A stretch of DNA of 20,550 nt, from the IMG/VR virus record IMGVR_UViG_3300010430_000544, positions 1 to 20,550 of that record; one strand, 5' to 3'. Source of the DNA: a virus. The position numbers were made by a program, and so were the translations under genes. Of the stretch, positions 1,144-7,720 are shown piece by piece; position 1 is the first letter of the stretch, and every line of letters starts with the position of its first letter. The notes under the pieces were generated by a model. That model was given only the letters and a program-made list of their open reading frames with translations, searched no databases and was not told where the DNA came from.

Positions 1144-2714
1144 GTCGCTACCTTTTCGCTGAATGAAGGGAATTTGTATCGGCTTTCGCCCTGTGGTCCG
1201 CAAATATACAGGTTGTTTTTCGTCCTACTCGCCCCGACATAGAACACGCGGTGTTCTTCGTCGCGGTACTTCGTGCCACGGTTGAATATTTTGGCGGTTT
1301 GTCTTGCCATATCCGGCAATAACAATACATTATCGGCTTCCCCGCCCTTGACGCCGTGGATTGTCGACAACGTAACGCGTGGATTTTTCAAGCTTTCGCC
1401 ATTTTTAAGGACCCTGCGGTAATAGTCGCACTTTTTTTCAGATATTTTTGTTAGCGTGTCCCACCAGTCGCAGGTAATGTCAGCCATTAAGCCGAATTCG
1501 TCGCGCAGTTCGTCGTAACATAGCGGGTCGTCGTCTTTCACGTCAGACATACGGACTTTAGCGCCATAGGCGACGTGTTTTTTCGTCACCAAAACGTCGT
1601 ATAGCTGTTTTGCACGCCCGCCGGTAATACACTCGCCTTTCGAAAGCGCTACCCACGCATGAATTGCGCCCATGTCGGACGGGTTTATGATTTCGTAATC
1701 GCTGCGCTTGATCGGCACGCCCTTGTTCATAAGCCACGCTTGCACGGATTTCAAAAACGCATTGTTGCGCGCTAACACCATCCATTCGCCGCCTTCCAGT
1801 ATTGGCGCCATGCCGAAAGTTTGCACGTGCTTAACAATTCCTTCGCCTTCGCGGTGGGCCCATTGCTTTTCGTACCGTGCGGTAATTTTCCCGGCAATCC
1901 AGTTCGCTAACATCCACGGTCTACGCGGCAGGCGCCAAGACTTCGACAACACACGGCGTTCGCCTTGCAGCTTCAGGAACTGCCCGACGTCGGCGCCGTT
2001 CCACTGATAAATCGCCTGATCGTCGTCGCCGGCAATATACAGTTCTTTGACACCTGAGAACATGCGGTTGACGAAATCCCACTGCGCGGCGGTCAAGTCC
2101 TGCGCTTCGTCGATTATTGCAATATCAACGTCAAGCGGCGGATATTCCATCGCTACGGGTTCAATTATCAGATCGGTAAAATCCCGCAGACCGAACGTTT
2201 GCTTGTACGCGCTCAGTTCCGCCGATAAATCTTTGAACTGCTTACCATTTCGCCCGATGCTGTAGTTCAACGCGTCAAGTGGTAGCGTTCTAATGTATTC
2301 GATCAACGGCAGTTTCATGTTTCGGGCAACGTCGATCATATTCAACAAGTGGTTGCTTTCGTTTGTGTTTCTGGTTTCTGTCGTGGCCCAACTGGTTTTT
2401 TGCCCGGTCAGGTTGTCCAACCCGATTCGTGCGCCGATTTCCTTGTAGTTGTCAGCGTGCATGAAATCATCGTTTTTCAATCCCATAATGCGCGACGATA
2501 ACGAATGCAACGTGCGGAAATACGGGAAGTCTTCCGCCGTGAAGCCGAACCGGTCCATAGCGCGCCCCCGTGCTTCGTATGCCGCCTTTTGCGTGAACGA
2601 CACGTACGCTATCTTGTTCGGGGAAATCTTGCGCGACAGGCAGTCGTCGACCACGTCAAGCAACGTCGTTGTCTTGCCGGTACCCGGCGGTCCCAGTATT
2701 AACTGCCGATTCAA
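1137..2714 (-). CDS. UvrD/Rep-like superfamily 1 DNA helicase
   Basis: A 525-residue SF1A helicase that would unwind DNA 3' to 5' using ATP. Visible motifs in order are Walker A GPPGTGKTT (8-16), VSFTQKAA (motif Ia, 38-45), IIDEAQD (motif II, 200-206), GDDDQAIYQW (motif III, 229-238), SWRLP (motif IV, 259-263), STIHGVKGGEADNV (motif V, 450-463) and VFYVGASRTKNNLYI (motif VI, 490-504). It is shorter than cellular UvrD (about 720 aa), as is usual for phage versions. The start appears to be TTG at 2714, overlapping the primase TGA as TTGA. No ATG is available before Walker A, and the GGAG upstream is very close, so translation probably depends on coupling with the primase. It likely serves replication with the adjacent primase. 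Confidence 0.92.
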   Translation of the reverse strand: MNRQLILGPPGTGKTTTLLDVVDDCLSRKISPNKIAYVSFTQKAAYEARGRAMDRFGFTAEDFPYFRTLHSLSSRIMGLKNDDFMHADNYKEIGARIGLDNLTGQKTSWATTETRNTNESNHLLNMIDVARNMKLPLIEYIRTLPLDALNYSIGRNGKQFKDLSAELSAYKQTFGLRDFTDLIIEPVAMEYPPLDVDIAIIDEAQDLTAAQWDFVNRMFSGVKELYIAGDDDQAIYQWNGADVGQFLKLQGERRVLSKSWRLPRRPWMLANWIAGKITARYEKQWAHREGEGIVKHVQTFGMAPILEGGEWMVLARNNAFLKSVQAWLMNKGVPIKRSDYEIINPSDMGAIHAWVALSKGECITGGRAKQLYDVLVTKKHVAYGAKVRMSDVKDDDPLCYDELRDEFGLMADITCDWWDTLTKISEKKCDYYRRVLKNGESLKNPRVTLSTIHGVKGGEADNVLLLPDMARQTAKIFNRGTKYRDEEHRVFYVGASRTKNNLYICGPQGESRYKFPSFSEKVATC

Positions 2715-4273
2715 AACTCCAGACCGTCGTCATAATCGTTGTCAGCGACCACCTTGCCGGTACGCACGAACGATTCAGGCACGACCCAATAGTTCAGTTT
2801 CTTGTTCCCTGTCGCCGTGGTTGTTTTCTTTTCAAGCCCAAGGTTGCGCAGTTGCGTCCATAGCACGTTGGCAACCTTCACCGGGTATCTGTGTTGCTGT
2901 AGGAACTTCGAAAAGTGTTCAAAATGGAACAGGTATGACCCATTTTCGAACAGAACCATGCCGCTCAGGATGTCCACACGCGTCTGTGCTTCCGGCGCCA
3001 CTTCGATATAGTCTTTCAGGTATGCGCCAAGGTTCGCGGTTTCCGTCAGTTCGTATGGAATGTCAACAACTTCGTGGTTCATTAACCAGTGTTGTATCAT
3101 TTGGTCCCACATGTTGTTGTTCATGCGCGGCGGCATTTTGTCCAGTTTTTCAAACACTTTTTCGCGGAATTTCATATTGCTGGTCAGTTCCGGACGCGAA
3201 AATTGGACGTCCCTGCCATTAATGGAAATGATGTATCGCGGCGGGTCGTCCATCTGTTCACCGGAAACGTTGACCTGCACAAGCTTTCGCACGCCTTCAA
3301 TGTTCCATTCGTCCCATACCTGCACCAACCCGCCCATAATGCCGTACTCGCGGGTTTGACATAGCGGCTTGTTGCACACTTCGGCGCACACCGGTTCCTT
3401 GCAAAGGTACCCGTATTCCTTGTCACCCGCCAGCGACTTGAATATTGTCGCCTGAATTTCCTTGAACGGCAGTCCCGGCGCGAAATATTCGCCGTTCCAT
3501 GTCAGGACCTGTTCTTCCCAGTCGTCTGGGTGCTTTTTCTTGGCGTATATCGCGAACTGAAATAGCGACTTGTTACGCTCGCCATCGCTGACGCCAGATG
3601 TTGCCATTTGCTGGATGCACGGCGGCGCATCGGAAAACGGTATGTCCTGCGCAACGATCTTTCTTGCCTCGAAGTCTTCCGGCAGGACCCGCTTGCTTTC
3701 GGCATAGTCAAGGAACTTTTCGAAATCTGCGATAGGCTGGTTGTCGTCGTCGAACGCGTACCGTTCGGTGTATTTCGCGTTGAAGTACGGCAGGTTTATC
3801 CAGTTGCCGACCTGTCCTTTTTCCAGCTTTTCTTGTTTTGGGAATATCTCGATTTTCGGATATCCTAACGCGGTCGCCAGTGTGCCCAGTTTCTTCCGTA
3901 CTGTTTCCGCAGACATCGGTTCCGCGAAGAACATGTACAGATGTGCGCCGCCTGATTTTGATTTGCACCATACCAGCGGAAAACCGGATTTCTTCGCGTC
4001 GCCCACGAACCGCTGTACCGCGAATTCGTCGTACACGTCGAAGTCTACAGCGGCGAAACTACACGTGCCGTCGTCAGTGATAGGAACAACGCCAATACCG
4101 TATTCGCCGGACAAGTGGGCTTCCCAGTGCTCGCGGGTCACTTCGCCTTCGACGGTCTTTGCGCTGCCTTCAACCTTGCTGTCGCGTTCGCGGCGGTTCC
4201 CCTTTTCGCGGAATTCGCCGTGTGCGCGGTCAAGCCCAGAAAATAATTTACTGATTCGTTCGATTTTATCCAT
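2711..4273 (-). CDS. Archaeo-eukaryotic-type DNA primase
   Basis: A 520-residue protein with an AEP-superfamily catalytic core. AAVDFDVYD carries the metal-binding DxD (Asp77, Asp79). SKSGGAHLYMFF (105-116) is the SxH nucleotide-binding motif with His111. KIEIFPKQ, then GNWINLPYFN (156-165), complete the core. It resembles the primase domain of TOTE-type and phage bifunctional primase-polymerases. A helical PriCT-like region follows at about 228-285. Then comes a four-cysteine cluster with spacing C-x4-C-x3-C-x4-C (Cys291, 296, 300, 305), probably zinc binding. The C-terminal 200 residues are unassigned and contain no Walker A, so helicase activity would come from the adjacent UvrD-like protein. 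ATG 4273 is preceded by GGTGA and, 12 nt upstream, by the T-run of a terminator. Confidence 0.85.
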   Translation of the reverse strand: MDKIERISKLFSGLDRAHGEFREKGNRRERDSKVEGSAKTVEGEVTREHWEAHLSGEYGIGVVPITDDGTCSFAAVDFDVYDEFAVQRFVGDAKKSGFPLVWCKSKSGGAHLYMFFAEPMSAETVRKKLGTLATALGYPKIEIFPKQEKLEKGQVGNWINLPYFNAKYTERYAFDDDNQPIADFEKFLDYAESKRVLPEDFEARKIVAQDIPFSDAPPCIQQMATSGVSDGERNKSLFQFAIYAKKKHPDDWEEQVLTWNGEYFAPGLPFKEIQATIFKSLAGDKEYGYLCKEPVCAEVCNKPLCQTREYGIMGGLVQVWDEWNIEGVRKLVQVNVSGEQMDDPPRYIISINGRDVQFSRPELTSNMKFREKVFEKLDKMPPRMNNNMWDQMIQHWLMNHEVVDIPYELTETANLGAYLKDYIEVAPEAQTRVDILSGMVLFENGSYLFHFEHFSKFLQQHRYPVKVANVLWTQLRNLGLEKKTTTATGNKKLNYWVVPESFVRTGKVVADNDYDDGLEF

Positions 4274-4351: not shown

Positions 4352-5158
4352 TTAGAACGCGGTCCCATCGTTCGGCTCTTCGTGGTAGGCTGGCGCTGCC
4401 TCTTCGTCCGAATCGGACAACGTGTCGGTGGCTTCCTTAATTTCACCGGCACGGATTTGACCTTGGAATTCAACGGCGGCGTCAAACAATTCCTGATTCT
4501 GCACCAAACCGCTAAACTTCAAGTCCCAACCCCACCACGAATTGTCGTCCTTGCTTTCGCCTTCGATACCGACCTTGTACATAATGGCAGCGGTCGGAAC
4601 GCCTTTCGCCTTACGCTTCAGGTTGATATCGGAGTTTAACCGCTTGCTTTTCTTCAACTGCGACCGTTCCATGGTGATAATCAGCGGTTCAAACGAACCG
4701 TCTTCGTGCACCAGCATGACGTAATGGTACCGGGTATCGGAAATCTGGTTACCATTTGGCAGAATGTCACGGCTCTTGTCGTCGCGTTCGGCAGTTAACA
4801 GCATTTCCAGACCGACAGACGTCGGATGCTCGGCAACATATCCGCCGCCGTCTTCCCGGGTCTTCCATTCCATGAATGCGCGGCGGTAGTATACCGGCAC
4901 AATATGGACGTCTTCCTTGGTGGTATCAAGGAAATCTTGTGAAACGGTGTTGAATATCATGCCCTCTTCGGCGCCTTTGATATACTTGCCGTTTGATTTG
5001 GAAGCCTGCGGCGACAGTCCTTGCAGGATACGCAGGAACGGAATTGCGAACGAATCACTATCCGCCTGTTCCAGCGCAGCGTCTTCGAAATCTGCGTACT
5101 TGTTGTCGTTCAGGAATGCGGGCAAAGTCTCGCCCTTTTTGGCTATTGCTTTCGTCAT
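4352..5158 (-). CDS. SSB-like phage protein (probable single-stranded DNA-binding protein)
   Basis: A 268-residue protein whose body is rich in aromatic and basic residues (VPVYYRRAFMEWKTR at 87-101, ERSQLKKSKRLN at 164-175, NSWWGWDLKF at 206-215), compatible with nucleic-acid binding. It ends in an acidic tail (DSDEEAAPAYHEEPNDGTAF, 249-268) with a terminal Phe, like the C-terminal protein-interaction tips of SSBs and gp32/gp2.5-type proteins. It lies just upstream of the primase and UvrD-like helicase. Proteins of this appearance in related phages are, as I recall, annotated as ssDNA-binding. Its leader contains a hairpin and a pseudoknot resembling the T4 gene 32 autoregulatory site, and a terminator follows the gene, both fitting a stoichiometrically controlled SSB. 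No OB fold can be proven by eye; an annealing or recombination mediator is the alternative. Confidence 0.62.
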   Translation of the reverse strand: MTKAIAKKGETLPAFLNDNKYADFEDAALEQADSDSFAIPFLRILQGLSPQASKSNGKYIKGAEEGMIFNTVSQDFLDTTKEDVHIVPVYYRRAFMEWKTREDGGGYVAEHPTSVGLEMLLTAERDDKSRDILPNGNQISDTRYHYVMLVHEDGSFEPLIITMERSQLKKSKRLNSDINLKRKAKGVPTAAIMYKVGIEGESKDDNSWWGWDLKFSGLVQNQELFDAAVEFQGQIRAGEIKEATDTLSDSDEEAAPAYHEEPNDGTAF

Positions 5159-5181
5159 TTTTCAGTTACCTTTCAACGTTT

Positions 5182-5213
5182 ATGGGCGTAAGATGCCGCG
5201 CCCATATCGGCAT
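5182..5213 (-). promoter_or_regulatory. H-type RNA pseudoknot in the SSB-like gene leader
   Basis: Read as minus-strand RNA, the arms come in order S1 5' UGCCG (5212-5208), S2 5' AUGGGCG (5205-5199), S1 3' CGGCA (5198-5194) and S2 3' CGCCCAU (5188-5182). Every pair is Watson-Crick. Loop 1 is 2 nt, there is no gap between the stacked stems, and the last loop is 5 nt. An extra A-U pair (5213/5193) can lengthen S1 to 6 bp and leave 4 nt. This is sterically sound: a 2-nt loop spans the deep groove of a 7-bp stem. The structure ends 23 nt before the ATG, and the linker between them is A-rich and carries AAAGG. It resembles the gene 32 autoregulatory pseudoknot of T4/T2 in size and gene context. 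Confidence 0.6.
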
Positions 5214-5220
5214 TTTTAAC

Positions 5221-5241
5221 GGTAACCGTTCACCGGTCACC
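5221..5241 (-). other. RNA hairpin 5' of the pseudoknot
   Basis: As minus-strand RNA, GGUGACCG pairs with CGGUUACC over 8 bp with a 5-nt loop (GUGAA), including one G-U wobble. The same sequence as plus-strand RNA would have an A-C mismatch, so it suits minus-strand RNA. No U-run follows, so it is not a terminator. It starts 7 nt after the stop of the upstream gene and could insulate the pseudoknot leader or mark a processing point. Confidence 0.4.
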
Positions 5242-5248
5242 TGTCAAA

Positions 5249-5830
5249 TCACTTTTTCTTCGCTTTTGCCTTTTTCGGAAGTGTGACTTTAGCCACAGAG
5301 AACCGGAATACACTAATGATTTCTTCCGGTATCGCCTGTTCTGGGTCGTCCAGCTCAAGCTGTTTTTTGGCCCACGCGTTCAGTGTGCCGGCGTGGATCG
5401 CTTCCTTGATGGAATACGGCAGGTCCTTTTCTTCCGCGTAGTCAATCGCTTCCTGCTTCGCTTCGTCTTCCCCGGTACCGAACGAAAACAACACGTCGTT
5501 TTTGATAATGTCGCCGTGCCCATGTCCGCGCAGCCAATCAAACGCCGGCAGTTTGTTTGCCGCCTTGATGTTGCAATTCAGATCGTCCTTGACCGAAATC
5601 TTGGCGCCGTTCGACAGTGTGAATTCCGACAAACCGACCTGCTTCATTGCTTCAGGTAGTGTTTCCGTGCGCATTTGCAGGTATGAAGCCTTCAGGTTTT
5701 TAACGGTTTCTTCGGCGTCGTTTATCTGCTGTTCAAGCTTCACCTGTTGTTCCGCCAGTTCGGCGATTGTTGACAGTTCGCCTTCGTTCGGCAGCTCGGC
5801 TTTTTTACCCGCTGAATAATCAATTGCCAT
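5249..5830 (-). CDS. Coiled-coil phage protein of unknown function (193 aa)
   Basis: A 193-residue acidic-to-basic protein. Residues 20-52 (STIAELAEQQVKLEQQINDA and onward) form a clear heptad-like coiled coil. A central segment (about 70-130) is followed by a lysine-rich tail (KKAKAKKK). ATG 5830 has an AGGAG site about 10 nt upstream. It sits directly upstream of the SSB-like gene in the replication operon, which suggests a partner or accessory in DNA metabolism (inference). The basic tail could contact nucleic acid. I recognise it only as a type commonly found beside phage SSB genes, without a known activity. Confidence 0.8.
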   Translation of the reverse strand: MAIDYSAGKKAELPNEGELSTIAELAEQQVKLEQQINDAEETVKNLKASYLQMRTETLPEAMKQVGLSEFTLSNGAKISVKDDLNCNIKAANKLPAFDWLRGHGHGDIIKNDVLFSFGTGEDEAKQEAIDYAEEKDLPYSIKEAIHAGTLNAWAKKQLELDDPEQAIPEEIISVFRFSVAKVTLPKKAKAKKK

Positions 5831-7692: not shown

Positions 7693-7720
7693 ATAGTACA
7701 GTTTTAGCGCTGACTGTCAA
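7693..7720 (-). promoter_or_regulatory. Sigma70-type promoter for the replication operon
   Basis: On the minus strand a perfect -35 TTGACA (7720-7715) is followed after 16 bp by a -10-like TACTAT (7698-7693). Transcription would start near 7686, leaving a leader of about 28 nt before the SNF2-like ATG at 7658. The spacer contains ACAGT...ACTGT inverted half-sites around AGCGCT, which could be an operator. The -10 matches consensus at 4 of 6 positions. Confidence 0.5.

Follow-up and report, generated by a model that had tools for sequence, protein, structure and literature searches.

A conserved pseudoknot before a probable phage SSB gene as a candidate translational operator resembling that of T4 gene 32

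Might a phage SSB that bears no resemblance in sequence to the gene 32 protein (gp32) of T4 control its own translation in the manner of gp32? The question is raised by a leader of 90 nt (5159-5248, minus strand) that lies between the end of a DUF7307 gene (PF23984, Pam3 gp33-like; 5249-5830, minus) and the start of the gene for a 268-aa probable SSB (5158-4352, minus) in a viral sequence of 20,550 nt (positions 1-20,550 of IMG/VR record IMGVR_UViG_3300010430_000544), the whole of which we term the window. The T4 leader has a pseudoknot of about 28 nt at its 5' end; gp32 nucleates there and goes on to coat the less structured ribosome binding site (PMC535899, PMC3014915). A preliminary description of the window had read the leader as a hairpin followed by a pseudoknot of this kind, and had proposed that the SSB-like protein regulates itself through it.

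On the minus strand, positions 5212-5182 of the leader read UGCCG-AU-AUGGGCG-CGGCA-UCUUA-CGCCCAU, an H-type pseudoknot with a first stem (S1) of 5 bp, extendable to 6, a second stem (S2) of 7 bp, and loops of 2, 0 and 5 nt. S1 joins UGCCG (5212-5208) to CGGCA (5198-5194), with a sixth pair possible between A5213 and U5193, and S2 joins AUGGGCG (5205-5199) to CGCCCAU (5188-5182); loop 1 is AU (5207-5206), loop 3 is UCUUA (5193-5189), and the 3' arm of S1 abuts the second stem, so that loop 2 is 0. The pseudoknot is followed by an A-rich linker of 23 nt (5181-5159, 70% A+U), which contains the Shine-Dalgarno sequence GAAAGG (5174-5169), and by the ATG at 5158. The preliminary description had placed both the pseudoknot, optional sixth pair included, and the linker correctly, and the pseudoknot is beyond what chance would supply: when the 130 nt upstream of the gene were shuffled 5,000 times with dinucleotides preserved, no shuffle yielded an H-type pseudoknot of equal quality at a distance of 15-35 nt from the ATG. 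The leader as a whole folds 3.7 SD below its own shuffles, a figure that refers to the nested fold and includes a hairpin at the 5' end to which we return below. Taken singly, the S2 hairpin reaches -9.7 kcal/mol and S1 -5.6, and the predicted transcript has -13.2 in its best nested fold; by our own estimate, made without a pseudoknot program, S1 and S2 jointly would probably exceed that nested fold after the usual pseudoknot penalty. We note that in the best nested fold UGCC of the S1 5' arm (5209-5212) pairs with GGUA at the Shine-Dalgarno sequence (5167-5170, minus), a possible alternative fold that is weaker in the relative L001. An Rfam search returned zero families at the gathering score and only sub-threshold matches that we judged to be chance, the best of them tpke11 at 24.3 bits vs 43. 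A role as frameshift stimulator for the upstream gene was considered and rejected, as the pseudoknot stands about 36 nt beyond the end of that gene in the window.

Relatives of the protein were gathered from IMG/VR, GTDB genomes and phage records, and several of their leaders carry the same architecture in other letters. In L001, whose protein is 84% identical, both stems are kept and the loops differ; L002 (64%) has GCUG-AA-GGGGAA-CAGC-AUAU-UUCCCC, L181 has GCCG-CUA-CGGGAA-CGGC-UAAU-UUCCCG, and L101, L262 and L263 (48-52%) have CGCCG-AG-GGGCUGA-CGGCG-ACACU-UCAGUCC and similar sequences that lie partly within the end of the upstream gene. Further pseudoknots occur in L004, L104 and L269, and laxer limits add L102, L037 and L264. 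S2 changes in a compensatory way, appearing as AUGGGCG/CGCCCAU, GGGGAA/UUCCCC, CGGGAA/UUCCCG, GGGCUGA/UCAGUCC and GGGCUG/CAGCCC, and the columns of S1 keep their register across 7 relatives. When 12 pseudoknots are aligned by hand, two or more canonical pair types occur at every position of S1 (pairs 1-5) and S2 (pairs 1-7); because most of the 12 were picked by a descriptor that itself demands pairing, significance rests on the shuffle and control tests. The loops are free to vary where the pairing of the stems is kept, loop 1 being AC, AA, CUA, AG or AAG in relatives and loop 3 UCCAA, AUAU, UAAU, ACACU, AUAAU or ACUUCA, which suggests that it is the shape that is recognised. Linkers in the relatives measure 19-31 nt.

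The controls were as follows. A structure-blind MAFFT alignment places the S1 arms of seven sequences in shared columns, with one compensatory change from C-G to U-A; when S1 pairs were counted on this alignment, 69 of 500 shuffles did as well as that one compensatory pair. Such counting is informative for S1 only, since the 3' arms of S2 do not align without structure, and the evidence for S2 consists of per-sequence tests, namely shuffles and draws in which S1 is fixed, where random downstream DNA completes S2 in 0.2-3% of draws per sequence. Among 85 distinct leaders of the family, 10 pseudoknots were observed vs 0.1 expected from shuffles, a pseudoknot being counted if its stacking reached -20 kcal/mol, loop 2 was 0 and it stood 15-35 nt before the ATG. 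These records supplied 123 other gene starts as controls, of which 2 reached the same score and distance: one match, in L083 at 1763, overlaps an annotated terminator, and the other, in L166 at 1434 on the reverse strand, reads CUGG-G-CGGACC-U-CCGG-AGA-GGUCCG and stands 23 nt before the ATG of a gene that starts at 1435 of the reverse complement. One more control with a high score, in L166 at 2346 and 9 nt from the start, is a plain perfect hairpin. The preliminary description had named conservation and covariation of both stems in relatives as the check on its reading, and both are found, with compensatory changes in each stem. On this comparative evidence, the pseudoknot before the SSB-like gene is a conserved RNA shape.

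The distribution of the pseudoknot within the family is patchy. In a tree of 60 proteins it is present in 8/8 members of one clade (the W clade, support 100/99), in seven under strict limits and in L264 under relaxed ones. L004, L104, L269, L102 and L037 fall elsewhere in the tree, and hence there were several gains or losses. We rejected the possibility that the pseudoknot is universal in the family: many members, including most marine relatives, have almost no leader and no pseudoknot, and the family can therefore do without it. When viral contigs were scanned twice for the exact sequence, the element turned up solely before genes of the PF23977 family, to which the SSB-like gene belongs, and one scan of genome contigs gave a single distant relative, without the pseudoknot.

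Other leader elements precede genes of the same family. In Pbunavirus LBL3 (L083, 723-810) a promoter-like sequence is followed by a plain hairpin, CAGUUA-GAAA-UAACUG, and in tabernarius (L086, 755-849) by another, GUUCC-GGCAA-GGAAC; neither has a pseudoknot. YuA (L093), CN1 (L091), Bhz59 (L094) and their IMG/VR relatives L276, L279, L283 and L288, which form one separate clade in the protein tree, carry a YuA-type pseudoknot in an element located about 90 nt before the PF23977 start. This pseudoknot matches no Rfam family, and its S1 covaries (GGGC/GCCC, AGGC/GCCU, CGGC/GCCG or CGUC/GACG). It is like that of the window in having a loop 2 of 0 and in preceding a PF23977 gene, from whose ATG it is separated by 23-30 nt, but differs from it in a loop 1 of 6-8 nt, in a nearly invariant S2 of 4 bp (CGGG/CCCG) and in a conserved ACCGGGG. 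We also observed a conserved element, approximately CCCGUCACCUGGGYAGUGGUGAG, just after the upstream gene and upstream of the PF23977 gene in L090 (Ab18), L092 (RHph_I65), L097 (Pam3), L284, L288, L289 and L291, among them phages of Pseudomonas, Rhizobium and others; in Pam3 and RHph_I65 it can be drawn as GAUCC-CG-UCACC-U-GGGUC-AGU-GGUGA.

The 268-aa protein matches Pfam PF23977 (Pam3_Gp34) at E 3e-63, with 214 bits vs a cut-off of 27, and phrog_2402 at E 4e-64. An AlphaFold2 model, with pLDDT of about 90 in these elements, places strands at residues 84-99, 138-150, 156-164, 192-203 and 206-218 and a helix at 165-185, and the resulting order, b-b-b-a-b-b, is that of a predicted OB fold with an insert. 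The acidic C-terminal tail ends in F (...EEPNDGTAF), and those of relatives end in F or Y (...DDEVPF, ...DDDSPF, ...EEEVPF). The gene adjoins helicase and primase genes in what is a replication module; the primase beside it (2711-4273, minus) is of the archaeo-eukaryotic (TOTE-type AEP) kind. From the modelled strand order, the acidic tail and the place in the replication module, we take the PF23977 protein to be probably an SSB. The same reading is favoured by near-hits in the PDB that include RPA, PrgE, Teb1 and SsbA, although these are weak (best E 0.045, none at E <= 0.001) and no known SSB fold is matched significantly; by a viral structure search with 41 hits at E <= 0.001, of which one is annotated as SSB and almost all lack a named function; and by the absence of the SSB family PF00436 from six related phage records. 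A separate profile search of the PDB found no homologue and no gp32 chain. Against an SSB, in Vibrio phage QH (L098) a gene annotated as SSB (1671-2147), which has no Pfam match, lies directly behind the PF23977 gene, and this raises the question of which of the two is the SSB in that phage.

Ahead of the pseudoknot, the preliminary description had counted an 8-bp hairpin (5241-5221, minus) as part of the leader structure. The hairpin exists, but we would read it otherwise, for its bases are also those of the spacer and the greater part of the -10 element of a likely promoter, TTGACA-N17-TACCGT (5247-5219, minus), in which the -35 hexamer TTGACA occupies 5242-5247 and, 17 nt after it, a -10-like hexamer with 3/6 matches to consensus, TACCGT, occupies 5219-5224. 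Patterns of the form TTGACA-N16..18-TANNNT occur three times in the window vs 0.33 expected. In L001 (TTGACA-N17-TACTGT), L002 (TTGACA-N18-TAATTT) and L181 (TTGACA-N18-TAACGT) the pattern persists at the same place, and its TTGACA is kept despite differing surroundings, whereas the hairpin is lost; for this reason the hairpin is probably promoter DNA and not leader RNA, and its lack of conservation and its place within the likely promoter led us to reject it as a component of an operator. The pattern, kept in 4 phages, ends 5-6 nt ahead of S1; it is a prediction, its -10 is poor, and a stricter promoter scan does not list it. If the promoter is real, transcription would begin within a few bases of the first base of the pseudoknot (about 5215-5211). 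Behind the gene, a terminator-like hairpin (4313-4296, minus) reads GCCCGGGGAAACCCGGGC and then AGCATTTTTT, and terminators are annotated behind the homologous gene in LBL3, WFH and YuA. Together with the predicted promoter, these features suggest that the SSB-like gene may be transcribed as a unit by itself. Another promoter-like match to this pattern, TTGACAGTCAGCGCTAAAACTGTACTAT, is seen at 7693-7720 (minus), ahead of a gene for an SNF2-type helicase (7658-6192).

How close is the resemblance to gene 32? The same descriptor, applied to T4 gene 32, recovers UGCC-A-GCUAUGA-0-GGUA-AAGUG-UCAUAGC, 39 nt before the ATG, so that S1, loop 1, S2, loop 2 and loop 3 measure 4/1/7/0/5 in the T4 operator vs 5/2/7/0/5 in the window, and the likeness to the gene 32 leader that had been proposed at the outset amounts to a near-identical geometry. 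The paired shape is thus conserved, its place before the gene is fixed, and its geometry matches that of the T4 gene 32 operator. The operators of T4, T2 and RB69 share with it an H-type pseudoknot with abutting stems ahead of an SSB gene (here a probable one), an A-rich ribosome binding site behind it, and divergence in sequence; a location at the 5' terminus of the RNA or close to it would be shared as well if the predicted promoter of the window is real; the RB69 operator is diverged in sequence and similar in structure, and RB49 is seemingly without the pseudoknot (PMC535899, PMC3014915). There are differences too. The linker of the window is 23 nt, vs 39 in T4, and the window has its own predicted promoter and terminator; the unstructured A+U-rich stretch of T4, more than 40 nt long with UUAAA repeats, has as its counterpart here only 23 nt without UUAAA, a motif that is present in the linker of L002. 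Homology to gp32 was rejected, as BLAST against T4 gp32 gave no similarity (best E 7.8) and the PDB profile search no gp32 chain. The absence of detectable sequence similarity fits the earlier suggestion of an independent instance in an SSB-like protein unrelated to gp32, and we suggest that the element is an independent, probably convergent variant of the gene 32 operator; we have not filed it as a member of that class, because its protein is other than gp32 and it lacks the UUAAA-rich stretch of more than 40 nt. Two further systems are related by type of control. The gene 5 protein of M13, which represses the translation of gene 2, is likewise a phage SSB acting as a specific translational repressor, but its target is the mRNA of another gene and no pseudoknot is described for it in that source (PMC535899). 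In Escherichia coli rpsO, ribosomal protein S15 exerts autogenous translational control through an mRNA pseudoknot operator (PMC3014915); S15 is not an SSB, and the likeness lies in the mode of control.

We posit that the pseudoknot is a translational operator and that autoregulation by nucleated binding is the best explanation of these observations, one in which we place moderate confidence. Transcription would begin at TTGACA-N17-TACCGT, almost on the first base of the pseudoknot, whose two stems, with a loop 2 of 0, would stack coaxially. Once in excess over the available ssDNA, the SSB-like product would recognise the pseudoknot by its shape and spread along the A-rich and otherwise unstructured linker of 23 nt, covering the Shine-Dalgarno sequence and the ATG, and translation would stop; exposed ssDNA would draw the protein away and relieve the block. 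Three steps of this model are inferred, namely the identity of the protein as an SSB, its binding to the leader RNA, and the repression of translation.

The main rival to autoregulation is passive protection of the mRNA, in which the pseudoknot acts without any protein, either as a stable 5' cap against decay that depends on the 5' end or by setting the rate of ribosome loading, so that much SSB is made. The likely start site does place the pseudoknot at the extreme 5' end, the mRNA of T4 gene 32 is also unusually stable (PMC3014915), and no recognition of RNA by the protein need be invoked. However, a plain hairpin would suffice for such a role, and yet the abutting-stem geometry of a pseudoknot is kept; moreover, in L101, L262 and L263, where the last bases of the upstream gene form part of the pseudoknot, no promoter is apparent by eye and the structure is probably internal in a longer mRNA. 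We regard this explanation as unlikely. Less probable still is that the pseudoknot binds another regulator, whether a small ligand or some other protein of the phage or its host. Short H-type pseudoknots also act as riboswitches, a use that speaks for this reading. So does the fact that proteins of other kinds, ribosomal protein S15 among them, have mRNA pseudoknots for operators (PMC3014915). Against it, no loop or stem sequence is conserved as a ligand pocket would be, Rfam holds no family at threshold, and in the two exact-sequence scans of viral contigs the element kept solely to the PF23977 family. That the arms act at the level of DNA, perhaps as the half-sites of an operator at which the adjacent upstream promoter is repressed, is very improbable: the arms do begin 6 nt past the -10 hexamer, but two inverted repeats that interleave, change in a compensatory way and leave no gap between the stems are to be expected of RNA pairing and not of a protein site under conservation, the letters themselves vary, and the elements of the L101 type lie inside the end of the upstream gene. 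Chance complementarity of arms within a GC-rich stretch, conceivable for any single relative at the rate of the fixed-S1 draws, is refuted by the excess over shuffles in the family leaders and by the presence of the pseudoknot throughout the W clade.

Autoregulation through the pseudoknot also admits a wider reading, which we put forward tentatively and consider somewhat less probable than its operation in the window: a widespread phage SSB family unrelated to gp32 may have repeatedly evolved H-type pseudoknots with abutting stems as shape-read operators of its own mRNA, in the W clade, in L004, L104, L269, L102 and L037, and, as a variant, in the YuA clade. If this is true, the control of SSB synthesis by nucleation at a pseudoknot would be a convergent rule and not a peculiarity of T4. 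That two unrelated SSB families should have arrived at almost one geometry would suggest that proteins which bind ssDNA non-specifically can find their own mRNA through a generic RNA shape, and the reading of shape bears on how gp32 distinguishes its operator from other nucleic acid, which is an open question (PMC535899). Laboratory hosts are infected by many of the phages that carry the family. Finally, the large PF23977 family, whose members are now mostly labelled 'hypothetical', gains a hypothesis of function.
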